DNA of 64,000 nt, taken from the NCBI GenBank assembly GCA_028279425.1, contig JANQNV010000198.1, positions 1 through 64,000 on the forward strand. Direction: 5' to 3'. Source of the stretch: Longimicrobiales bacterium. Lineage in GTDB: Bacteria > Gemmatimonadota > Gemmatimonadetes > Longimicrobiales > Gaopeijiaceae. Under the pieces are notes generated by a model, which saw only the letters and a list, made by a program, of their open reading frames with translations, made no database searches and was not told the origin of the DNA. Below are positions 16,749 through 28,854 of this stretch, piece after piece (the first letter of the stretch is position 1; each line of letters starts with the position of its first letter). Made by a program: the position numbers and the translations under genes.

Positions 16749-19700
16749 CTATCGCGTCGCCCCGGCCTCGTCACCGCCAGCCCCCGCCGCGCGCCACGCC
16801 GCCTCCGCCTCCGCTCGACGAGCAGGGCCCTTCTCGAAGAGGTAGTACAGGGCGGGCGTGGTGGTGAGCACGAACAGCGTCGACGACAGCAGGCCACCGA
16901 TCAGAGCGTAGCCGAGCGCATTCCAGATGTTGGCGTCGGCCGTCTCGCTGAACAGCACGAGCGGGAGCAGTCCCAGAACGGTCGTGGCCGTGGTCATCAG
17001 GATCGGGCGCACCCGTTCGAGGGTGCCCCTCAGGATCGCCTCCTTGAGGCTCAAATCCGGCGTTCTTCGAACGTTGTTGATGTGGTCGACGAGCAGGATG
17101 GCGTTGTTGACCACGATCCCGCCCATCATGATCACCCCGATGTAGGCCTCTCGCGTGAAGGTGGCTCGCGCGTAGAAGAAGATCAGGAACACGCCGATCA
17201 GCGCCATCGGCACCGTCAGCAAGACGGCCATCGGCTGGCGCAGGGACTCGAAGAGCGCCGCCGTGACCATGTAGACGAGCAGAATCGAGATCAGGAGCAC
17301 CGCGTAGATCTGATTGCGTTCGTCGACCCCCCACCCCCACCCCTGCGTGACCTGGATCGTGTATCCAGCCGGGAGTTCGGTGTTTTCGATCAGGGCGTCG
17401 CGGTACAGGTCGCCCAGCTTGCGGGGGCCACGGAACTCGTACGCCACGCTGCGCTCGTACTGCTGGTTCTCGCGGTGGATGGTCGACAACACGTCGCGCC
17501 GATCGATCTCTACGACGTCTCCGAGTCGCACCGTGCGCCCGTCGGGTGTCTGGATCAGCGTTTCGCGCAGGCCGAGCACGTCGACGTAGTCGGCGTCGCG
17601 CACCTTCACCTCGTAGAAGAGGTCCTCCCCGCCCACCTTGATGCTCTGTTGGCCACCGGTGCCGGCGATCGCGCGGGAGAGCTGGTTGACGAGATCGGAC
17701 ACACTCATGTCGAACCGCGCCAGGCGGGTGCGATCGACCGCCACGGTGAACTCGGTCGCCTTGTCGCGGGTGAAGCGTCCCGAGGCGTTGGTGTCGACCT
17801 CCTGGACGCGAGCCAACCGCTCCAGGCGCCGCCCCAGATCCTCCGCGATGTCCCGCACCTTGAGGAAGTTGTAGCCGAGTACCTGGATCCGGTACGTAGG
17901 CGGACTGCTCCCCCCTCCGTAGAACGACGGACCGTAGCCCCGCACGTAGACGTCGGCTCCCGTGAAGGTGTGGCTGTACGCCAGCATCTGCTCCTTGATG
18001 GCCGGCGGAATCGCCGTGAACTCCAGCGAATCCGGAAACGTCACCTCCATGTAGGCACTCGTCTGCTGTACCGACGCCGTGAACTGCTCGACCTCGGGCA
18101 GCTGGAGCAGCTTGCCCTCGAAGAACTCCACGAGCTGATTGGTCCGCTCGAGATTGGAGCCGCGAGGGAGCGAAATCTGGATCGAGATGAACGTGCGCTG
18201 GCTGCCCCCTCCGCCCCACCGCACCCCCCGGGTCACGTACTTGTCGAAGGTGAAGCTCGAGAAGCCGAAGACCGCGAGAGTCACGAAGATCGCCACCCAC
18301 GGGTGATTCAGCGTGAATCCCACGACCGAGCCGTAGAACCGCTGGTAGAGGGGCGGGCGACGCGACGACCCCGACGCCTCGGAGGCCGCGGGGCCGACCC
18401 CGAGCGAGAACTCGGGGCGCTTGCCCTTCAGGATGCGCCCTGCGATCGACGGGATGAAGGTGAAGGCCACGAACAACGAGGCGAGCAGGGTCAGTCCGAC
18501 CACGATCGCCAGTGGGACGTAGAAGACGCGCAACTCGCCCTGGAGGTAGACGAAGGGCACGAAAACGATGAGGGTCGTCGCGGTCGAGGCGAGGATCGGG
18601 AGCACCACTTCGCGGGCGCCGTGCTCCGCGGCCACGCTCGCGTCTTCGCCCTTCTGCCATCGCCGGTAGACGTTTTCGAGCACCACGATGGAGTTGTCGA
18701 CGATCAACCCGAAGCCCATCGCGAGCCCCATCAACGTCAGCAGGTTCAGCGTCAGGCCGCCGAAGTAGATGAGGTTGAGCGAGATCAGGACCGAAAAGGC
18801 GATCGTGGCGAAGACGAGTCCCGCCGAGCGCAGCGAGCCGAGGAATACCAGGAGCACCAGGAAGATGACGACCGCCGCGATCGCGGCCCGCGCCCGCAGG
18901 TCGGTGAGCTGCCGGCGTACGTCTTCGCTTTCGTCGTACTCCAGAATGAAGCGGCTGCCGTTGGGATTGAGGTCCTCCAGCTCCGCGAGGCGCGCTTTGA
19001 CGGCATCGGCGGTGCGCACCGTGTTGGCGCCCCGCGACTTCGTCAGCGACATCGTGACGGAGGGGCGCGCGTTGATGCGCTCGAGCCGGCGGGCCTCCTC
19101 GAAGGTGTCGTGCACCGTCGCCACGTCGCCGATGCGCACGACGGTGCCGTCGACCGCCCGAATCGGCGCGAGGCGAATATCGTCGGCGCTCTGCGGCCGA
19201 TTCACGATGGTGACGGTGCGCTCGTTTTCGTCCTCCCGGATGATCCCCGCCTCCTGGACGAGATCGAGCTCGTTGATGCGCTGATAGACGACGAAGGGGT
19301 TGAATCCCAGCGACCGCACCTTCTCCTCGTCGACCCGGATCTCGATTCGGCGTTCGCGCCCCCCGAAGACCCGTGTAACCGCCACGCCATCGATCTGGTT
19401 GAGCTCGGGCGCGACGACGTCTTCGAGATGCCGGTGCAGCGCCTCGAGGATGAACGGGCCGGTGAACGAGTAGCTGAGGAAGGGGCGCTGCGCGTCCTGG
19501 AATTCGCGCGGCACGTACGGCTCCACCACGAGTCCGCGCACGCCGGGCGGTAGATCCTCTTCGATCGCGGCGATCCGCTCCGAGAGCTCGAGCCGCACGA
19601 AGTCCATGTCGGCGTCGCGGTCGAAGGCGACCTCGATCGAGGCCCTTCCTTCGTAGGAGTCCGACTTGATGCTGTCGACCCCCTGCACCTGCTGGATGGC

Positions 19701-19901
19701 CGCCTCGAGCGGTGACGTCAGGAATGCCTCGACCGTCTCGGGACTCGACCCGGCCCAGCTGCCGCTGACCGTCAGCCGCGGCAACTGCGTGTCGGGCAGG
19801 AACTCGATCGGGATGTTCTGCCACGAGAAGAGACCGAGAAGCGCGACGGCGGTGTAGGTCATCGCCACGGCGACCGGGCGACGGATGCTGAGGCGGATCA
19901 T
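16749..19901 (-). CDS. Efflux RND transporter permease subunit (second of a tandem pair)
   Basis: Inner-membrane, proton-driven pump of the AcrB/HAE-1 superfamily, 1050 residues, with two repeats of six TM helices and large periplasmic loops. The TM4 motif is LIVDNSIVVLENV: the first proton-relay Asp is kept and the second is Asn, as in many HAE-family pumps. Its ATG overlaps the TGA of the preceding RND gene by one base (TGATG). With the membrane-fusion and TolC-like genes upstream it forms a four-gene efflux operon. A pair of unequal RND subunits suggests a heteromeric pump like MdtBC. Substrate cannot be inferred. Confidence 0.93.
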   Translation of the reverse strand: MIRLSIRRPVAVAMTYTAVALLGLFSWQNIPIEFLPDTQLPRLTVSGSWAGSSPETVEAFLTSPLEAAIQQVQGVDSIKSDSYEGRASIEVAFDRDADMDFVRLELSERIAAIEEDLPPGVRGLVVEPYVPREFQDAQRPFLSYSFTGPFILEALHRHLEDVVAPELNQIDGVAVTRVFGGRERRIEIRVDEEKVRSLGFNPFVVYQRINELDLVQEAGIIREDENERTVTIVNRPQSADDIRLAPIRAVDGTVVRIGDVATVHDTFEEARRLERINARPSVTMSLTKSRGANTVRTADAVKARLAELEDLNPNGSRFILEYDESEDVRRQLTDLRARAAIAAVVIFLVLLVFLGSLRSAGLVFATIAFSVLISLNLIYFGGLTLNLLTLMGLAMGFGLIVDNSIVVLENVYRRWQKGEDASVAAEHGAREVVLPILASTATTLIVFVPFVYLQGELRVFYVPLAIVVGLTLLASLFVAFTFIPSIAGRILKGKRPEFSLGVGPAASEASGSSRRPPLYQRFYGSVVGFTLNHPWVAIFVTLAVFGFSSFTFDKYVTRGVRWGGGGSQRTFISIQISLPRGSNLERTNQLVEFFEGKLLQLPEVEQFTASVQQTSAYMEVTFPDSLEFTAIPPAIKEQMLAYSHTFTGADVYVRGYGPSFYGGGSSPPTYRIQVLGYNFLKVRDIAEDLGRRLERLARVQEVDTNASGRFTRDKATEFTVAVDRTRLARFDMSVSDLVNQLSRAIAGTGGQQSIKVGGEDLFYEVKVRDADYVDVLGLRETLIQTPDGRTVRLGDVVEIDRRDVLSTIHRENQQYERSVAYEFRGPRKLGDLYRDALIENTELPAGYTIQVTQGWGWGVDERNQIYAVLLISILLVYMVTAALFESLRQPMAVLLTVPMALIGVFLIFFYARATFTREAYIGVIMMGGIVVNNAILLVDHINNVRRTPDLSLKEAILRGTLERVRPILMTTATTVLGLLPLVLFSETADANIWNALGYALIGGLLSSTLFVLTTTPALYYLFEKGPARRAEAEAAWRAAGAGGDEAGATR

Positions 19902-22900
19902 CAGTCGGCTCCCGAGGCGGGGATCGGCTCGAGTCGAGGTTCATCCCGGGGCGACCCCTGCGCCCGCAGGCGAAGATCTTCGACGGTCTGGTACACCACC
20001 GGGACGACGATCAGAGTGAGGAGGGTTGCGACGATGAGGCCACCGATCACGGCGATGGCCAGGGGCGCCCGGAGGTCGGCTCCACGCCCGATCCCGAGGG
20101 CCATCGGGAGGAGGCCGAGCACGGTCGTCACCGTCGTCATGAGGATGGGGCGAAGCCGCACCCGGCCGGCCTGCAGGATCGCCTCCCGCAGGACCATCCC
20201 CCGAGCTCGCGCCTGGTTGATGAAGTCGACCTTCACGATCGCGTCGTTGACTACGATTCCGACCAGGATGACCACACCGATCAGACTCATCGTATTGAAG
20301 CCCTGCCCGGAGACCCACAGCGCCAACACCGCGCCCACCAGGGCGAGAGGAACCGCCATCAGGATCGTGAGCGGGTGCACGAAGGATTCGAACTGCGCGG
20401 CCAGGATCATGTAGACGAGGATCAGCGCCAGCGCGAACGCGAAGGTGAGATCGCGGAAGGAGCGCCGCATCTCTTCGTTTTCGCCGCCGACCTCCATGCG
20501 CAACTCGCGTGAGCTCGTGTAGCCGCTGAGTTCGGCCTCGATCGCCGTGATGGCGCTGCCCAGACCGCCCCGGACGACGTCGGCGTACACCGGGATCACC
20601 CGCCCCTGCTCTTCCCGCCGCACCTCCGCCGGGCCGATTGCATCTCGAATCCGCACGAGCTCACGGATCGGAACCCCCTGCACTCGAAGCCCTTCGAGGG
20701 TAGAGCGCTCGTAGCGGAGATCTCTCGGATAGCTGACCACGACGGGAATCTTGCGATCGAAGTCGACGTACTCCGTCGCCCGATCCCCCCGCATCGCACG
20801 ATCGACCGTCGCCGAGACTTCGCCGGGCTCGATTCCGTACTGGGCCGCCTGCTCGGTGAGGATCTCGACGTCGATCTGCGGGGTGCCCTCTTCGGCGCCC
20901 ACCCGCACGTTGCCGAGCATGTCGAGCTGCGCCAGGCGGGCCCGCACCTCCTCGGCCCGCCCCATCAGGAGGCCCAGGTCGTCTCCGCGCACGCGCACCG
21001 ACACGTCGGCGTCGGACCCCCCCAGAATGGTGCCCAGCGCCGTGGCCTGCCCCGCCTGGAAGGACAGCGCCCCCGGCGGGAACGCGCCCTGGAGGGGTGC
21101 CAGGCGGTCGAGTACGTCGGCCGTGCGCACGCCCTCGAGCAGGCGCACCTGGAACTGCGCGGTGTTCAGGCCGGTCTCCTCCTGACCCTCGGCGTAGGCG
21201 CGCACGTCGCGCCCCACCCGGCCGAACACCGCCTCGACACCGGGATCCTCGAGCAACGCCGTTTCGATCTGTTCGGCCGCCTCGGCGGTGGTCTCGATGC
21301 CCACCCCCTCGTCGAGCTGGAGCCGGATGTCGAACGCCCCCTGATCGACGTTGGGCAACAGGTCGCGCTGCAACATCGCACCGAGCGCGAGTGTGCCGAG
21401 GAGCGCGAGGGTCGACAGCCCCAGGACACGTCCGGGATGCACGAGCGACCACTCCAGCGCGCCGTGGTAGCGCTCGGCGAAGCGGTCGAAGGCCCGATCG
21501 AAGGCGTCGAGGAACGGTCGAGTCACCCGCCCCACCGTCCGGCCGAAGCCCGACCACCAGAACTCCGCCAGCGACCGCGCGAGACGCACGACGAAGCCGA
21601 TCACCTTGAAGGGGGCGAACACGATGGCGAACCACCCCCACTGCACCCAGCCGAGCCCTTTGGGCCGCGCTCGCAGCTCCGGATCGGGATCGGGGGCCTT
21701 CGCTTCGCCCCCCGAGAAGCGCGCGGCCAGCGCAGGCAGCAGAGTGAGCGCGACGAGCAGAGAGGCGATGAGCGAAAAGGCCACCGCCAGAGACAGATCG
21801 CCGAACAGCTCCCCGGCGACCCCTTCGACGTAGATGATCGGGCCGAAGACGGAGATGGTCGTGAGGGTGGAAGCGGTGATCGCGCCCTGCACCTCTTCGG
21901 CTCCGATCGCGGCCGCCTCGAGCCCCGACTTCCCCTCCTCGCGGTGCCGGAAGACGTTTTCGAGTACGACGATGGAGTTGTCGACCAGCATGCCCACGCC
22001 GAGGGCGAGTCCACCGAGACTCATGATGTTGAGCGAGACGCCGGCCGCCTCCATGAGGGCGAAGGTGCCGACCACGGAGATGGGGATCGCGGTGGCGATG
22101 GCGAAGGGATAGCGCGAGTCGCGCAGGAAGAGGAAGAGGACGAGGAAGGCGAGAATGCCCCCGAAGACCAGCGCCTGGACCACATTGCTGATCGACGAGG
22201 CGATGAACCCCGCCTGCGAGTAGGCGACGTCGAGCTGGATCTCCGGGAACTCGAGGCGCAGCAACTCCAGAACGTCGTCGACGGCGCGGGCGACGGTGAC
22301 CGTATTCGCCCCCGACTCCTTGAAGATGAGGAGCCCCACCGACTCGACTCCGTCGTAGTACGCCATCGACTCGCGCTCGGCGAAGCCGTCGGTCACGGTG
22401 CCGATGTCCTGCACGCGCACCAGCCGGTAGCCCGGCTCCCCCTCCTCGTCGGTGTCGCCCGTGGCCTGCTGGGCCACCACCACGTCGGCGATCTCCTCGA
22501 CCGTCTGGAACTCGCCCATGGTGCGCAGCGGATAGCGGTACCGACCCTGCAGGATCGTCCCGCTGCCGCCGCTGACGTTGGACTGCGCCAACGCCTGGCT
22601 GACCTGCGCGATCGTGAGTCCGTACGCATCCATCCTACGGGGGTCGACCTCGACCTGGATCTCGCGGTCGAGTCCCCCCGACACCGCCGCCTGCGCGACG
22701 CCGTCGAGCTGCTCGAGCCGTCGCCGGAAGACCGTCTCGGCGAGCTCTTTGGTCGTCCACAGATCCTCCGGCCCTGCGACGCTGAGCGTCATGATGGGCT
22801 CGGACTCGGGGTCCACCCGCAGGATCCGGGGGCGGGTCGCCGTCTCGGGAAGCCCCTCGCGCAGGTTGTCCATCCGCTCCCGCACGTTGAGCATCGCGTA

Positions 22901-23206
22901 GTCCATGTCGGAGCCCCACGCGAACTGCAGCGTGACCAGGCTGACCCCCTCGCGCGACATCGACGACACCCGCTCGACCCCGGATACGGCTGCGGCCTCG
23001 GCTTCGACCCGCTCCGTGATCAGCCGCTCGACCTCGGCCGGCGCGACGTCGGGATACGAGGTGTAGACCACGAGCCTCGGGTAGCTGACGTCGGGCAGCA
23101 GGTCGATCGGCAGGCGGATGTAGCTGATCGCCCCGAGGAGGATGACCGCGAGGAACAACATCGCGACCGCAACCGGACGCCGGGTCGAGGTGCGGGGGAT
23201 CGACAC
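19901..23206 (-). CDS. Efflux RND transporter permease subunit (first of a tandem pair)
   Basis: 1101-residue AcrB-type pump. The N-terminus RRPVAVAMLFLAVILLGAISY is the first TM helix, and TM4 carries MLVDNSIVVLENVFRHREEG with a D-N pair. It is longer than its downstream partner mainly through a cytoplasmic segment between TM6 and TM7 (around residues 490-570). It begins 3 bases after the TolC-like gene ends and overlaps the second RND gene by one base, so stoichiometric expression is likely. Confidence 0.93.
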   Translation of the reverse strand: MSIPRTSTRRPVAVAMLFLAVILLGAISYIRLPIDLLPDVSYPRLVVYTSYPDVAPAEVERLITERVEAEAAAVSGVERVSSMSREGVSLVTLQFAWGSDMDYAMLNVRERMDNLREGLPETATRPRILRVDPESEPIMTLSVAGPEDLWTTKELAETVFRRRLEQLDGVAQAAVSGGLDREIQVEVDPRRMDAYGLTIAQVSQALAQSNVSGGSGTILQGRYRYPLRTMGEFQTVEEIADVVVAQQATGDTDEEGEPGYRLVRVQDIGTVTDGFAERESMAYYDGVESVGLLIFKESGANTVTVARAVDDVLELLRLEFPEIQLDVAYSQAGFIASSISNVVQALVFGGILAFLVLFLFLRDSRYPFAIATAIPISVVGTFALMEAAGVSLNIMSLGGLALGVGMLVDNSIVVLENVFRHREEGKSGLEAAAIGAEEVQGAITASTLTTISVFGPIIYVEGVAGELFGDLSLAVAFSLIASLLVALTLLPALAARFSGGEAKAPDPDPELRARPKGLGWVQWGWFAIVFAPFKVIGFVVRLARSLAEFWWSGFGRTVGRVTRPFLDAFDRAFDRFAERYHGALEWSLVHPGRVLGLSTLALLGTLALGAMLQRDLLPNVDQGAFDIRLQLDEGVGIETTAEAAEQIETALLEDPGVEAVFGRVGRDVRAYAEGQEETGLNTAQFQVRLLEGVRTADVLDRLAPLQGAFPPGALSFQAGQATALGTILGGSDADVSVRVRGDDLGLLMGRAEEVRARLAQLDMLGNVRVGAEEGTPQIDVEILTEQAAQYGIEPGEVSATVDRAMRGDRATEYVDFDRKIPVVVSYPRDLRYERSTLEGLRVQGVPIRELVRIRDAIGPAEVRREEQGRVIPVYADVVRGGLGSAITAIEAELSGYTSSRELRMEVGGENEEMRRSFRDLTFAFALALILVYMILAAQFESFVHPLTILMAVPLALVGAVLALWVSGQGFNTMSLIGVVILVGIVVNDAIVKVDFINQARARGMVLREAILQAGRVRLRPILMTTVTTVLGLLPMALGIGRGADLRAPLAIAVIGGLIVATLLTLIVVPVVYQTVEDLRLRAQGSPRDEPRLEPIPASGAD

Positions 23207-23209
23207 CGA

Positions 23210-24703
23210 TCAGCCTCCCGCCGCCGGGCGCACCGGCCCGCCGACCGCCGTCTCCAGCGCGATCAGCGCATCGACGAAGCCGTAGCGCGCCTGGATCACC
23301 TGACGGCGCCCGGTGGCCTCCTGCTCGACGGCGTCCTGGAGTTGCTCGAAGGTGCGCGTGCCGAGGCGGTACTCCTCGCGAGCGAGGCGGAGCGCGTCTT
23401 CGGCGATTTCGACCGAACGGGTCGCCAGCCGGAGCGTCTCGCCCTGGTCACGCAGGTTGATCAGCTGCGAGCGTACCTCCTGCTCGGTCTGGAGGCGCGT
23501 TTCGTCGAGCGTCTCCTGCTGGTTGTCGAGGGTGACTTTGGCCTGGGCCTCGGCAGCGGTACTGCCGAAGTAGTCGTTCAGGAAGGGGATCGAGAGCGAG
23601 GCGCTGAAGGAGCTCTGGACCCGATCCTCGAGACCGAACGAGAAGAATGCGTCGCTCTCGCGGGTCTGCAGGAACGGCCCCCAGTTGTAGCGCAGATTGA
23701 TGGTGGGCCACTTCCACTGACCCGCTGATGCGACGCCGACCCGCGCCTCATCGACACCCGCCACCGCCGTACGCACCTGCGGATTGTCGCCGAGCGCGCG
23801 GGCCACCAGTCCGTCGGCGTTGAGCGTGGCCGGGTCGAACACAGGGAGGGCTTCCGACTCGGGGCGGAGGGCCGGCAGTTCGGTATCACCCAACGTCGTC
23901 CGTAGCGTCAACAGCGCCTGCTCATATGAGGTGCGCTGCTGCTGAATCGCCAATAGCTGCTGCTCCACCGCGAGTTCCGCCTGCAACACGTCGACCTGGG
24001 TGTTTCGAGCGAGCCCAAAGAGACGCTCCGCCGTCTCGAGATCCCTTCGTCGGGCGTCGGCGATCGCCTCCTCGACCGACAGCAACTCCCGCTGCTCGAG
24101 AGCGTCGAAGTACTGCCGCTCCACATCTGCGCGAAGCGTGGCCTGCGCCCCGTCCAGGGTCAGCACACGGCCGCGGTTGACCTGCTCCTGGCGGCGGCGC
24201 TCGTTGAGGAAGCTGAGTCCCTGGATGCTCCAGTTGAGGGTGACGCTCTGCCCGCTGTTCGACGTGTAGATCCAGTTCGCCTCGGGGTTCTCCAGAGGAA
24301 AGCCGAGGGGGTCGAGGGCCACCCTCTGAAGATTCCCATTATAGGTGGTCGAGAAGAGGTTTCCTTGTACGTCCGGCAAGAGCGACCCGAACAAGCTACT
24401 CCGCGTCTCGACCCCGTTCAGCCCCAGCGAGTTTTCGGCTCGCCGCACGGCGGGGTTGGCTCCGAGCGCGATCCCGAGCGCGTCGTCGAGCGACAGCACC
24501 AGGGTGTCGGGTTGCTGGGCCTGAGCGGCGAGGGGCAGCACGCCCATCCCGAGCGCGGCACAGACGAGCCCCACCCCGACAGCGGTCGCCCCTCTCCCGG
24601 CGGCACCCCTCGAGCGATCGGACCTGCCCACACCGCATCCCCCACCACCACGCCCGGTCGGCGCCCGGCCCGTGGCGACCCGCGCGCTGCCGAAGGCCCT
24701 CAC
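23210..24703 (-). CDS. TolC-family outer-membrane efflux protein
   Basis: Outer-membrane channel of the tripartite pump. 497 residues from the GTG at 24703, which overlaps the TGA of the membrane-fusion gene (GTGA). A signal peptide (GLVCAALGMGVLPLAAQAQ) is preceded by a long Arg/Gly-rich stretch, so a later GTG nearer the signal peptide is also possible. The mature part has two long coiled-coil repeats with TolC-type patterns (LDDALGIALGANPAVRRAE, then REEYRLGTRTFEQLQDA). The longer ATG reading from 24883 is antisense-like and rejected. Confidence 0.88.
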   Translation of the reverse strand: MRAFGSARVATGRAPTGRGGGGCGVGRSDRSRGAAGRGATAVGVGLVCAALGMGVLPLAAQAQQPDTLVLSLDDALGIALGANPAVRRAENSLGLNGVETRSSLFGSLLPDVQGNLFSTTYNGNLQRVALDPLGFPLENPEANWIYTSNSGQSVTLNWSIQGLSFLNERRRQEQVNRGRVLTLDGAQATLRADVERQYFDALEQRELLSVEEAIADARRRDLETAERLFGLARNTQVDVLQAELAVEQQLLAIQQQRTSYEQALLTLRTTLGDTELPALRPESEALPVFDPATLNADGLVARALGDNPQVRTAVAGVDEARVGVASAGQWKWPTINLRYNWGPFLQTRESDAFFSFGLEDRVQSSFSASLSIPFLNDYFGSTAAEAQAKVTLDNQQETLDETRLQTEQEVRSQLINLRDQGETLRLATRSVEIAEDALRLAREEYRLGTRTFEQLQDAVEQEATGRRQVIQARYGFVDALIALETAVGGPVRPAAGG

Positions 24704-25905
24704 GACCCCGGCCTCCCCCCTGCCCGGCGCGGGTTGTCGACGAGTTGGATGCGCGTGTCGTGGGCGAGGTAGTGGTGCCCATCGATCAGCACGATGCTGC
24801 CGGGGTCGATCGGATCGGTGTCCTCGCTCGGCACGATCTCGATGAACTGCTCGTTTTCGCGCCCCGTCTGCACGTAGTTCCACTTCGCCAGCCCCTCGTC
24901 GTCTTCGCCCTCGAACAGATAGACCATCGTGCGCCGACGCCCCTCACCTCGCTCCAGGATGGCCGATCGAGGCACCAGGATCCGATCGGCGAAGCTACGG
25001 GCATTGATCGTCACATCGGCGTACATACCCGGTTTGATTCGACCCTGGGGGTTCGGAAGGTGGATGGTCACCCGCCCCGTCCGCTCTGCCGAGACCACCG
25101 GGTTGAGCGTCTGGATCCTGCCGGTGAAGGTCTCGCCGGGGAACGCCGCGAAGGTGACCTCGGCGGTGCGCCCCTCGGCCAGGTAGCCCAACTCGGCCTC
25201 GAGCACGTTGACCTCGACCTTGATCGGATCGAGATCTACCACGGTCATCAACTCGGTGCCTGCCCCCGCCTGCTGCCCCTCCACCACGAGCAGGTCGGCG
25301 ATGCGCCCCTCGAAGGGCGCCCGGACCGTCGCCCGCTCCAGGCGCAGTCGAGCCTGCGCGAGCGTCACCTCGGCGGCCCCGAGCCCACTCGAAGCCCGCG
25401 CCACCGTATCGCGCCGCGCCCGGATCCTCGGATCGTCGATCTCGTCGTCGAAGAGGATCGTGGCTTCGTACTGGGCCTGGGCGTTGGCCCGCTCGGCCTC
25501 GGCCCGCGCCACCTCCAGGGCGAGCTCCAGCGTGTCGATCTGCACGATGGTCGAGCCGACCGAGACGCGTGAGTTCTCCCGAACCGGGACCGCCTGGATC
25601 ACCCCCTCCACCTGGCTGGCCACCGTGGCGCGCCGGAAGGCCTCGGCCTGACCAGACGCCTGGACGGTTTCCCACAGCGTGTCGCGCACGACGGGTACAC
25701 CGCTGACCGGCTGCGGGAGGTCGGTGCTGAACTGATCGCCGGCCGCCCCCAGATCGACGCCGAGCGAGTCGGCGGTCGCCGTCGCGGCGCCGGGTCCCTC
25801 TTCATCGGTCGATTCGGGCCGCAGCCGCCACCAGGTGCCACCGGCGACGGCCGCGACGACGATGACGATGGTGAAGATCGAGAGCGTGCTTCGCGAGAAT
25901 GCCAT
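24700..25905 (-). CDS. Efflux RND periplasmic adaptor (membrane-fusion protein, HlyD-like)
   Basis: 401 residues. One N-terminal TM anchor (STLSIFTIVIVVAAVAGGTWW) is followed by a lipoyl-like half (GVIQAVPVRENSRVSVGSTI), an alpha-hairpin, the second lipoyl half (ATVRAPFEGRIADLLVVEGQ) and beta-barrel segments (GRIKPGMYADVTINA). It bridges the RND pumps to the TolC-like channel. The start at 25905 puts the anchor at the N-terminus; an ATG at 25986 adds 27 Arg/Ser-rich residues and is less likely. First gene of the efflux operon. Confidence 0.92.
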   Translation of the reverse strand: MAFSRSTLSIFTIVIVVAAVAGGTWWRLRPESTDEEGPGAATATADSLGVDLGAAGDQFSTDLPQPVSGVPVVRDTLWETVQASGQAEAFRRATVASQVEGVIQAVPVRENSRVSVGSTIVQIDTLELALEVARAEAERANAQAQYEATILFDDEIDDPRIRARRDTVARASSGLGAAEVTLAQARLRLERATVRAPFEGRIADLLVVEGQQAGAGTELMTVVDLDPIKVEVNVLEAELGYLAEGRTAEVTFAAFPGETFTGRIQTLNPVVSAERTGRVTIHLPNPQGRIKPGMYADVTINARSFADRILVPRSAILERGEGRRRTMVYLFEGEDDEGLAKWNYVQTGRENEQFIEIVPSEDTDPIDPGSIVLIDGHHYLAHDTRIQLVDNPRRAGGRPGS

Positions 25906-26157: not shown

Positions 26158-27378
26158 ATGCTCCTTCTTCGACTCTCCACCGGCCTCGCCGCCCTGCTCG
26201 CTGCGGCCGCGTGCGATCCGGGAGTCGACATCGACCCGGCGTGGGCCGACGCACCCCTCCCCTCGCCCGGTGACCCCGTCGACGACGAGGTGGCCGACGC
26301 CGGAGCGTGGCTCTTTCGGCGGAATTGCGCCGCATGCCACCACATCGGTGACTCGTCGATGCTCGGACCCGACCTCGCCGGGGTGACCCGCCGCCGGAGC
26401 GCACCGTGGATCGCCGCGATGATCCGGAATCCGGATTCCATGCTGGTCGCCGACTCGATCGCGCAGCGCCTCCTCGCGGAATACCAGGTTCCGATGGCGA
26501 ATCGCCGACTCGACGGAGCTCGGGTCCGGGCGTTGCTCGAGTTCCTGCATCGCGCCGACGCGGGCGAGGGAGGCGGCGCCCTCCAACCCGCCGCAACCGC
26601 CGACACGAGCGGCGTGACACCGTCGGGACTCGCTTGGCGACGCTCCGGACGGGGCCCCCTGGTGGTTCTGGTCCACGGCACCAACCTCGACCGCGCTGTC
26701 TGGAGTCGTCTGCGCCCCGCTCTCGCCCGGTCGCGAACCGTCGTGGAGTACGACCTTCGCACCCACGGAGGCTCGAGCGACACCCTCGGGCCCTGGTCCG
26801 AGGTCGGTGACCTCGACGATGTCTTGAGTGCGGCGGGGGTGGCCAGTGACGATCCGATCACCCTCGTTGGCCTCTCCGCCGGTGCCGGCATCGCGCTCGA
26901 GTTCGCCCTCACTCGCTCGTCGCGCGTCGAGCGCCTCGTGCTCGTGTCGCCCTCCGTGCGTGGATTCGCTCCGCGGCCGGGCGAGGTCCCCGACGTCTTC
27001 GGAGGGGTGCGCGACGCCCTCGAGGGGGGCGATTCGACGGCAATCGGGGACGCCATGGTCGCCCTGCCCACCTTCGAGGTCGGCGACGCGGATCGGCCCG
27101 ACGTCGACGCCATGGTCCGACGCAACCTGCGCCTCTTCGCGATCGACCCGACGTGGGCCATCCCCGCCGTGCCCGCCCCCCTCGAGCGCCTCGGCGAGGT
27201 GGCAGCTCCCGCGATCGTGGTCGTCGGGACGCTCGACTTCCCTGCCACCCGCCGACTCGCCGACGAATTGGTCGCCGGGCTGCCCTCGGCACGCGCGCAG
27301 GTGGTCGACGGGGGGCGGCACCTGCTCCCCATCACGGACCACGCGGCCGTCCTCGAAGCGATTCTCGGGAGCGAATAG
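26158..27378 (+). CDS. Cytochrome c / alpha-beta hydrolase fusion lipoprotein
   Basis: 406 residues with an unusual domain order. Residues 1-19 are a lipoprotein signal ending in AAAC (Cys19). Residues 45-130 form a small class I cytochrome c: haem motif CAACH at 57-61 and probable axial Met113 in VPMANRRL. A short Ala-rich linker leads to an alpha/beta hydrolase (about 155-406) with VVLVHGTN, the nucleophile elbow GLSAGAG (Ser240), a late Asp in GTLDFPATR and His in GGRHLL, so the catalytic triad looks complete. The product should sit in the periplasm, anchored to a membrane. Substrate unknown. The TAG stop directly abuts the ATG of the next gene. Confidence 0.88.
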   Translation: MLLLRLSTGLAALLAAAACDPGVDIDPAWADAPLPSPGDPVDDEVADAGAWLFRRNCAACHHIGDSSMLGPDLAGVTRRRSAPWIAAMIRNPDSMLVADSIAQRLLAEYQVPMANRRLDGARVRALLEFLHRADAGEGGGALQPAATADTSGVTPSGLAWRRSGRGPLVVLVHGTNLDRAVWSRLRPALARSRTVVEYDLRTHGGSSDTLGPWSEVGDLDDVLSAAGVASDDPITLVGLSAGAGIALEFALTRSSRVERLVLVSPSVRGFAPRPGEVPDVFGGVRDALEGGDSTAIGDAMVALPTFEVGDADRPDVDAMVRRNLRLFAIDPTWAIPAVPAPLERLGEVAAPAIVVVGTLDFPATRRLADELVAGLPSARAQVVDGGRHLLPITDHAAVLEAILGSE

Positions 27379-28854
27379 ATGGAGCTCGACGGCCTCGACA
27401 TCTGCCTCCTGACCGACCAGGACCTCGAGGCCGGCCTACCTCTGCCGGCCGACGACTGGCCCTGCGACCCGCGCCCCTACCTCCCCGAAGCCGAGTGGGT
27501 GGTGCAGCCGCTCGAGAAGGAAGACGCGGTGGCGACCCTGCTCCAGGTGGCCCGCCAGGGCTTCGACGTCTACTTCAACCTGTGCGACGGCGCGTGGGAC
27601 GAATCCAGGCCGGGCATCGAGGTGGTGCATACCCTCGAGCGCCTCGACGTCGCCTTCACCGGCGGACACTCCGGCTTCTTCGAGCCCTCGCGCGAAGCGA
27701 TGAAGCGGGTCTGCGCGGCGACGGCGGTCGGGTACCCCGCCTACGTCGAAATCCGGTCGGACGAAGACATCGAGCGCGCCGCGGAGAGCCTGCGCTTTCC
27801 CCTGATCGTGAAGCACCCGTCGAGCTACGCAAGCGCGGGACTGACCCCGGCCTCCCGCGTCGAGACCGTCGACGAGCTGTACACGCAGGTGAGCCGGATG
27901 CGCGGACTGTTCCACGGTGCTCTCGTCGAGGAGTTCATCGAAGGCGACGAGTACACGGTGCTGGTGGCCGAAAATCCCGACGACCCCGACCGGCCGGTCA
28001 CCTACCAGCCGCTCGTGTACCGCTTTCCCGAGGGAGAGTGTTTCAAGCACGAGGACCTCAAGTGGGTCGACTACGACGGACTCGAAGCTCGCCCGGTCGA
28101 CGACCCGGCGCTCGACGCGCGCCTTCGCGACTGCTCGGCCCGCTTCTTCCGAGGGCTCGACGGATCGGGCTATGCGCGATGCGATATCCGCGTCGACCGG
28201 TCCGGGAAGGTGTTCATGCTCGAACTCAATCCCAATTGCGGTCTCTTCTACCCGCCGACGGACCCGTCCAGCGCCGATCTGATCCTCCAGTGGGATCCCG
28301 CCGGCCACGCGGGCTTCGCGCGCACCGTCGTACGCGCGGCTCTGGCGCGACATGAACGGGCGCGTCGAACGTGGCGCGTCGAGCACGTGCCGGGGCGAGG
28401 CTACCAGCTCGCGGCCGCGGTCGCGCTCGACGCCGGCGCCCTGATCCTGACCCGCGAAGAGGGCCAGCACCCCATCGTCGCGCGCAGCCACCTCGAAGCC
28501 ATGCCCGAGGCCGAACGCCGCGAGGTACTGCGGGGTGCGTGGCCGCTCGGCGGCGCCGCCTGGGCCGTCCCCGCGGACGATCCGATGCAATGGCGGCCGA
28601 TCAACCACAGCTGTGATCCGAACGCGTGGGTGTCGGGGCTGCAGCTCGTGGCTCGACGACCCCTGGCCCCCGGCGACGAGATCACGGTCGACTACGCCAC
28701 CCTCTTCGACGATATCCACCCGGAAACGGAATGCGACTGCGGCACGGTCGATTGCCGAGGCACGATCGGTGGAGCGGCCTGGCAGTGTGATGAATTGGAG
28801 AGGTACGGCAGTTTCGTCGCGGACTACATCCTGGAGCGCAGGCGCTATCTCTGA
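27379..28854 (+). CDS. ATP-grasp ligase / SET-domain methyltransferase fusion
   Basis: 491 residues, no signal peptide, so cytoplasmic. Residues 1-310 resemble D-Ala-D-Ala ligase-type ATP-grasp enzymes: VYFNLCDG near the N-terminus, ATP-binding Lys145 in LIVKHPSS, and the metal-binding run ELNPNCG (Glu282, Asn284). Residues 335-491 form a SET domain: GRGY (339-342), NHSCDPNAW (409-417) and GDEITVDYA (432-440). A post-SET zinc motif has Cys452, Cys454 and Cys459, to be completed by Cys412. SET proteins methylate lysine; ATP-grasp enzymes join an acid to an amine. Substrates are unknown. The start abuts the previous stop, with GGGAG just upstream, indicating coupling. The end overlaps a convergent gene by 10 bases. 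Confidence 0.9.
   Translation: MELDGLDICLLTDQDLEAGLPLPADDWPCDPRPYLPEAEWVVQPLEKEDAVATLLQVARQGFDVYFNLCDGAWDESRPGIEVVHTLERLDVAFTGGHSGFFEPSREAMKRVCAATAVGYPAYVEIRSDEDIERAAESLRFPLIVKHPSSYASAGLTPASRVETVDELYTQVSRMRGLFHGALVEEFIEGDEYTVLVAENPDDPDRPVTYQPLVYRFPEGECFKHEDLKWVDYDGLEARPVDDPALDARLRDCSARFFRGLDGSGYARCDIRVDRSGKVFMLELNPNCGLFYPPTDPSSADLILQWDPAGHAGFARTVVRAALARHERARRTWRVEHVPGRGYQLAAAVALDAGALILTREEGQHPIVARSHLEAMPEAERREVLRGAWPLGGAAWAVPADDPMQWRPINHSCDPNAWVSGLQLVARRPLAPGDEITVDYATLFDDIHPETECDCGTVDCRGTIGGAAWQCDELERYGSFVADYILERRRYL

Follow-up and report, generated by a model that had tools for sequence, protein, structure and literature searches.

A conserved bacterial fusion of an ATP-grasp and a SET domain suggests a pathway for an exported small molecule

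ATP-grasp enzymes of the Ddl (D-alanine--D-alanine ligase) type convert a carboxylate to an acyl phosphate, which is then passed to an amine. SET enzymes methylate N or S nucleophiles with SAM as the donor, and where a SET domain carries a post-SET zinc site, its classical activity is the methylation of protein lysines. The SET enzyme BurB S-methylates free methionine to give S-methylmethionine and binds the methionine via main-chain contacts (PMC12542666). Its Y124A mutant was almost devoid of activity; its Y124F mutant kept more than 60% (PMC12542666). SET-like and ATP-grasp-type domains are found in one chain in the eukaryotic TTLL12, in which critical residues of both domains are lost and which showed neither methylation nor tyrosination in vitro (PMC3520985).

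The window analyzed here is a stretch of 64,000 nucleotides from a Longimicrobiales bacterium, and it carries a gene for a protein of 491 residues, translated with zero internal stops (Table 1). Pfam matched Dala_Dala_lig_C at residues 128-289 (E 4e-14, 53 bits versus a cut-off of 24) and SET at residues 396-439 (E 7.6e-7, 30 bits versus a cut-off of 22.4), with SET and post-SET together covering residues 331-466. An AlphaFold2 model of the whole chain, with the window sequence and 61 relatives as input, reached a pLDDT of 93.6 and a pTM of 0.89, every residue being at 70 or above. Its top Foldseek matches were Ddl structures, over the N-terminal half (E 7.8e-19, TM by target about 0.75). The SET part was also modelled separately (pLDDT 90.6) and matched MLL4, BurB and SETD2 with E values of 2e-8 to 4e-8. 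That a Ddl-like ATP-grasp and a SET domain are joined in one chain had been proposed in the initial annotation, and Pfam, the AlphaFold2 model and Foldseek agree on it. Model and alignment show that the N-terminal half has the predicted fold of an ATP-dependent carboxylate-amine ligase together with its conserved catalytic residues, and that the C-terminal half has the predicted fold and the signature residues of a post-SET SAM-dependent methyltransferase. All 39 full-length family sequences match both Pfam families. The window protein is a genuine two-module enzyme architecture, conserved, and both modules are known.

Table 1. Features of the fusion gene and of its upstream flank, in window positions.
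Feature	Coordinates	Strand	Evidence
ATP-grasp-SET fusion, single ORF, 491 aa	27379..28854	+	Translation, Pfam, AlphaFold2, 39-member family
Ddl-type ATP-grasp domain, residues about 6-310	27394..28308	+	Pfam; Foldseek against Ddl structures
Linker helix joining the domains, residues 309-328	28303..28362	+	DSSP on AlphaFold2 model
SET domain, residues about 331-440	28369..28698	+	Pfam; model; Foldseek
Lys145, ATP-grasp nucleotide-binding lysine	27811..27813	+	39/39 in family alignment
Asp269, first of the D/E/N metal-binding triad	28183..28185	+	39/39; role by alignment to Ddl
Glu282 and Asn284, metal-binding triad	28222..28230	+	E282 38/39 (one D), N284 39/39
Gln343 (CAG), replacing second Gly of SAM-binding GxG	28405..28407	+	G in 37/39; Q unique to window copy
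NHSC, SET signature, residues 409-412	28603..28614	+	H410 and C412 39/39, N409 37/39
Tyr439, SET active-site tyrosine (DY)	28693..28695	+	33 Y, 6 F in family alignment
Post-SET region, putative zinc site Cys452, Cys454, Cys459	28699..28776	+	39/39 each
Upstream gene, cytochrome c and alpha/beta-hydrolase protein, zero spacing	26158..27378	+	Pfam; neighbour tables
GGGAG, possible ribosome-binding site, 7 nt 5' of ATG	27367..27371	+	Sequence reading; function inferred

Residue conservation was counted in the alignment of the 39 full-length family members. Lys145, Glu282, Asn284, the NHSC motif, the active-site tyrosine and the post-SET cysteines had been named correctly in the initial annotation: K145, N284, H410, C412 and the three post-SET cysteines are invariant in the 39 sequences, E282 is present in 38 and N409 in 37, and position 439 is Tyr in 33 and Phe in 6. 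Cys412 is presumed to be the fourth zinc ligand. The SET domain had also been described as complete; the NHxC motif, the active-site tyrosine and the post-SET cysteines are indeed present, but the second glycine of GxG is missing in the window copy, where the motif reads G-Y-Q.

The same fusion was sought in other genomes. The 39 full-length sequences could be aligned end to end and share 32-69% identity with the window protein. Among 395 genomes of the phylum, close relatives (50-69% identity) were present in about a dozen and a second type (about 35% identity) in about 30. A GTDB scan with one genome per species gave at least 414 relatives, of which the best 80 were kept. The fusions among the matches listed were labelled as belonging to about 12 phyla, namely Gemmatimonadota, Planctomycetota, Chloroflexota, Chlorobiota, Actinomycetota, Myxococcota, Pseudomonadota, Thermodesulfobacteriota, Bacteroidota, Cyanobacteriota, Verrucomicrobiota and Acidobacteriota; most fusion-bearing genomes are metagenome bins, whose taxon labels can err. 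One contig labelled Streptomyces griseus (L138) has a Chitinophagaceae-like cassette, groups with Bacteroidota in the tree and probably comes from a mislabelled bin. Two isolates, Chlorobium ferrooxidans DSM 13031 (L079) and Lacibacter cauensis CGMCC 1.7271 (L121), also carry the fusion. The initial annotation had considered a frameshift or a misassembly where the two halves meet; this was ruled out because the same join is common to many homologues, including all 39 aligned sequences and the isolates. SET domains had been called uncommon in bacteria, which did not hold for this phylum: 87 of 200 genomes carry at least one.

The family has two branches, group A, which includes the window protein, and group B, whose C-terminus is shorter. 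A split in the ATP-grasp tree, for which a quick search with SH-aLRT support only was used, separates the A from the B fusions; the solo ATP-grasps, which lack a fused SET, are placed mostly among the A fusions, giving four changes between fusion and solo forms. The simple, though unproven, reading of this tree is that the SET half was gained once and then lost several times. The SET tree separates a clade of the fused SETs (SH-aLRT 97) from a group made up of the free SETs and BurB. Separate genes for the two halves had been raised earlier as a sign of a false join. Stand-alone ATP-grasps do exist, but their placement mostly among the fusions is more in keeping with several losses of the SET half than with a false join. 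Their existence also indicates that the ligase and methyltransferase activities are separable. Moreover, no SET was detectable in 5 of the 20 genomes that carry a SET-less ATP-grasp, which makes it probable that the ligase can act in the absence of a SET. The SET-less ATP-grasps of Anaerolineae (L106, L108, L116-L119, L125-L130) are 42-46% identical to the window N-terminal half and share a conserved neighbourhood of ABC-transporter genes together with genes for a GH4-like and a galactokinase-like enzyme, both of these assigned from sequence reading only.

The SET domains of the fusions and of the free genes beside them were compared with known enzymes. The window SET alone found BurB first in a PDB sequence search (1.5e-7), narrowly before ASH1L (2e-7), and the profile of the fused-SET family scored MLL1 at 59.2 bits and BurB at 57.3 bits. 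The profile of the stand-alone cassette SETs scored BurB at 90.9 bits over nearly the full length, versus 47.3 for the best histone enzyme. By these scores, the free cassette SET clearly belongs to the BurB type, and the fused SET shows no clear preference for BurB.

Neighbouring genes were counted only at loci with at least 2.5 kb of flank on each side. In group B, the same strand carried, no more than 5 kb away, a second, Ddl-type ATP-grasp at 46 of 47 loci, a SET-only gene of the BurB type at 26/47 and a gene for an ABC_membrane_3 transporter membrane protein at 22/47; all three were found together at 17/47. ABC_membrane_3 recurs as a single orthologous family. For group A, a SET-only gene was nearby at 5/20 loci, and the partner ligase and the ABC_membrane_3 gene were each found at 0/20. 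No shared neighbour hinting at function was found across the group A fusions, a genome search gave no second SET in the window's genome, and among 14 genomes of group A relatives searched, a clear BurB-type SET elsewhere was found only in G197. Other transporters lie next to some members (a full ABC exporter in Chlorobium, MatE at L043 and L105, MFS at L080), and their recurrence is suggestive only. In the Chlorobium ferrooxidans isolate, one SET-only gene lies upstream of the fusion, and downstream come the ABC exporter and another SET-only gene, which is more divergent (L079, 9942-12084). The myxococcal locus L090 (Myxococcales) encodes ATP-grasp, SET and BurB-type SET all in one chain, and in Brasilonema (L109) the SET-only gene is separated from the partner ATP-grasp by a gene for a FemAB-like aminoacyltransferase. 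Neighbour clustering gave no recurrent small precursor ORF (at least 50 aa) beside the cassettes.

Several single loci showed further arrangements. In an Akkermansiaceae bin, a 629-aa protein with a C-terminal BurB-type SET (L084, 11591-13477, minus strand) is encoded 2.6 kb from a SET-less ATP-grasp, and its first 500 residues gave zero Pfam matches. Three ATP-grasp ORFs lie close together at L052 (G287:C160, 4029-9941): a SET-less relative of the window protein, one of the partner type on the opposite strand, and a third with SET as a separate downstream ORF. A radical SAM gene (L040, 7548-8462, minus strand) shares 4 bases with the 3' end of a group A fusion, at this one locus only. A role in anti-phage defence was considered and dropped, as the PADLOC defence models gave zero matches for the fusion protein or the four proteins of the L104 cassette.

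In the window, the TAG stop of the upstream gene (27376-27378) abuts the start of the fusion (27379), making co-transcription of the two genes probable. The upstream protein contains cytochrome c at residues 47-131 and an alpha/beta hydrolase at residues 167-400 by Pfam. The upstream gene does not recur as a neighbour across the family, and because group A neighbours are not conserved, this adjacency says little about function. The related hydrolase of the sister species L032 (12051-12932) has no cytochrome c part. Divergent from the fusion operon lies an RND efflux set on the minus strand (16749-25905), with two AcrB-like pumps, an outer-membrane factor and a membrane-fusion protein identified from translations and clustering; similar genes are found at L032 (13230-19000).

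Given these contexts, our leading reading, which we rate at even chances, is that the fusion ligates amino-acid-like substrates and methylates the substrate or the product, which in many relatives would be an exported small molecule. The ATP-grasp half would convert an amino-acid-like carboxylate to an acyl phosphate and join it to an amine, giving a dipeptide or an amino-acid amide, and the SET half would methylate either the ligated compound or one of the components joined in it. In group B, the second ATP-grasp and the BurB-type methyltransferase would add steps, and the membrane protein would export the product. In the window's genome, the fusion would act without the second ligase, the BurB-type SET and the exporter, and its SET half may be shifted or weakened in function. 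That the protein builds and then modifies a small molecule had been proposed before; the gene context supports this, but the proposal and the substrates are still what we infer.

The small-molecule reading is based on several observations. The ATP-grasp half is nearest to Ddl enzymes, which act on free amino acids; the group B partner is almost always another Ddl-type ATP-grasp; and the cassette SET groups with BurB, a methyltransferase of free methionine. Six members have Phe at the active-site Tyr, a change that BurB tolerates in Y124F. Transporters recur nearby, as ABC_membrane_3 in group B, the Chlorobium exporter, MatE and MFS, and the one-chain protein of L090 and the FemAB-like gene of L109 point the same way. 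Counting against it, the fused SETs form a clade apart from the BurB types, with MLL1 level with BurB in the profile comparison, and the group A loci have neither partner ligase nor ABC_membrane_3 and the window's genome no second SET. The SET-less relatives, by which the two activities are separable, and the possible effect of Q343 on SAM binding in the window copy also count against it. A wider proposal, to which we give somewhat less than even weight, is a widespread small-molecule pathway in which tandem ATP-grasps and SETs, fused and free, build and methylate an exported amino-acid-derived metabolite. If this were true, SET domains would play a main part in the metabolism of bacteria rather than in chromatin.

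Whether the SET half of the window copy itself is active was considered separately. It deviates at four columns that are at least 90% conserved: Q343, P376 (W), P398 (W) and T450 (F). W376 is also altered in both closest relatives, and W398 in one of these two. Branch dN was obtained by three-point arithmetic on the pairwise dN of the window and the sister species L032 and L033. For the SET half, it was about 0.34 for the window versus about 0.12 and 0.09 for the sisters, and for the ATP-grasp half about 0.09 versus 0.07 and 0.09, without excess. The window SET half thus appears to have evolved about three times faster than those of its sisters, a rough estimate with dS near saturation. Q343 may weaken SAM binding, and because of this residue and the accelerated SET half, methyltransferase activity is less certain for the window copy than for the family and should not be assumed. 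Decay of the SET half in the window's genome, leaving a functional ATP-grasp beside a methyltransferase that is weakened or a mere binding domain, would account for the altered SAM motif, the three other substitutions and the excess dN, and the SET-less ATP-grasps among the fusions are consistent with repeated SET loss. We regard it as unlikely, though deserving some weight: H410, C412, Y439 and every post-SET cysteine are retained, the reading frame is uninterrupted, the SET part is modelled with confidence, and dN (0.46) is still below dS (1.14).

Slightly less probable again is that the fusion modifies proteins, the ATP-grasp half adding an amino acid to a protein, like RimK or tubulin tyrosine ligase, and the SET half methylating a lysine of that protein or of a different one. 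This agrees with the classical role of SET domains with a post-SET zinc site, with the near-equal profile scores of MLL1 and BurB, and with the Foldseek result, which places MLL4, BurB and SETD2 together. TTLL12 is moreover a natural pairing of SET-like and ATP-grasp domains tied to protein modification (PMC3520985). However, the ATP-grasp half is of the Ddl type and not of the RimK or TTL type, six members have Phe at the active-site Tyr, and beside the fusion BurB-type SET and transporter genes recur, with zero conserved partner-protein genes. Far less probable than either is that the protein is a housekeeping D-alanine--D-alanine ligase whose C-terminal extension is accidental or an artefact. 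Although the top matches of the ATP-grasp half are Ddl, the protein scores far below the curated cut-offs (NF002378, 59.7 versus 243 bits; TIGR01205, 49.6 versus 245.65 bits), and this identity was rejected on these scores. The fused SETs also group in a single clade that is conserved in many phyla and in two isolates, and other Ddl-like stretches occur in the window's genome.

The fusion family is widespread, and no description of it was found in the open-licence literature. Its members often lie next to another methyltransferase gene and a gene for export, which suggests a so far unexplored route by which a small molecule would be made and leave the cell. If the small-molecule reading is right, these genes would represent an unexplored biosynthetic module in many environmental bacteria, across about 12 labelled phyla among the matches listed, and the two isolates would allow a direct search for the product. 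It would also extend the free-amino-acid methylation known from BurB to a larger group of bacterial SET domains otherwise presumed to methylate protein lysines.

With regard to known systems, the fusion loci resemble graspetide and other ATP-grasp peptide pathways in having an ATP-grasp enzyme next to a transporter, but the ATP-grasp is of the Ddl type, and among ORFs of at least 50 aa no recurrent precursor gene was found. No described pairing of SET-like and ATP-grasp domains was found besides TTLL12 (PMC3520985). The initial annotation knew of no precedent for the pairing, which stands for the bacterial fusion (an ATP-grasp or D-alanine ligase plus a SET domain), undescribed in the open-licence full-text literature, but not for the pairing in general, since TTLL12 precedes it in reversed and inactive form. 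In TTLL12 the SET-like domain is N-terminal and the TTL domain C-terminal, whereas the N-terminal half of the fusion is of the Ddl type. Ddl enzymes (e.g., the DdlB structures 8evy and 8evz) share with the fusion the fold over the N-terminal 300 residues, the lysine and the D/E/N triad. However, identity is about 20%, the N-terminal Ddl substrate motif GGxSxEHEVS is absent, the fusion N-terminus reading MELDGLDICLLTDQDLEAG, and the fusion has its own conserved Cys287 and Arg271 in addition to the SET domain. The histone lysine methyltransferases with post-SET (MLL, ASH1L and SETD2) have the SET fold, NHSC, GEExxxDY and the CxC...C post-SET in common with it, but they carry longer inserts, act on peptide substrates and are about 20-24% identical. 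BurB (PDB 9l4t and 9l4v; PMC12542666) is, like the fused SET, a compact bacterial SET with post-SET zinc cysteines; it consists of SET only, whereas the fused SETs form a separate clade with a different central (SET-I) segment.
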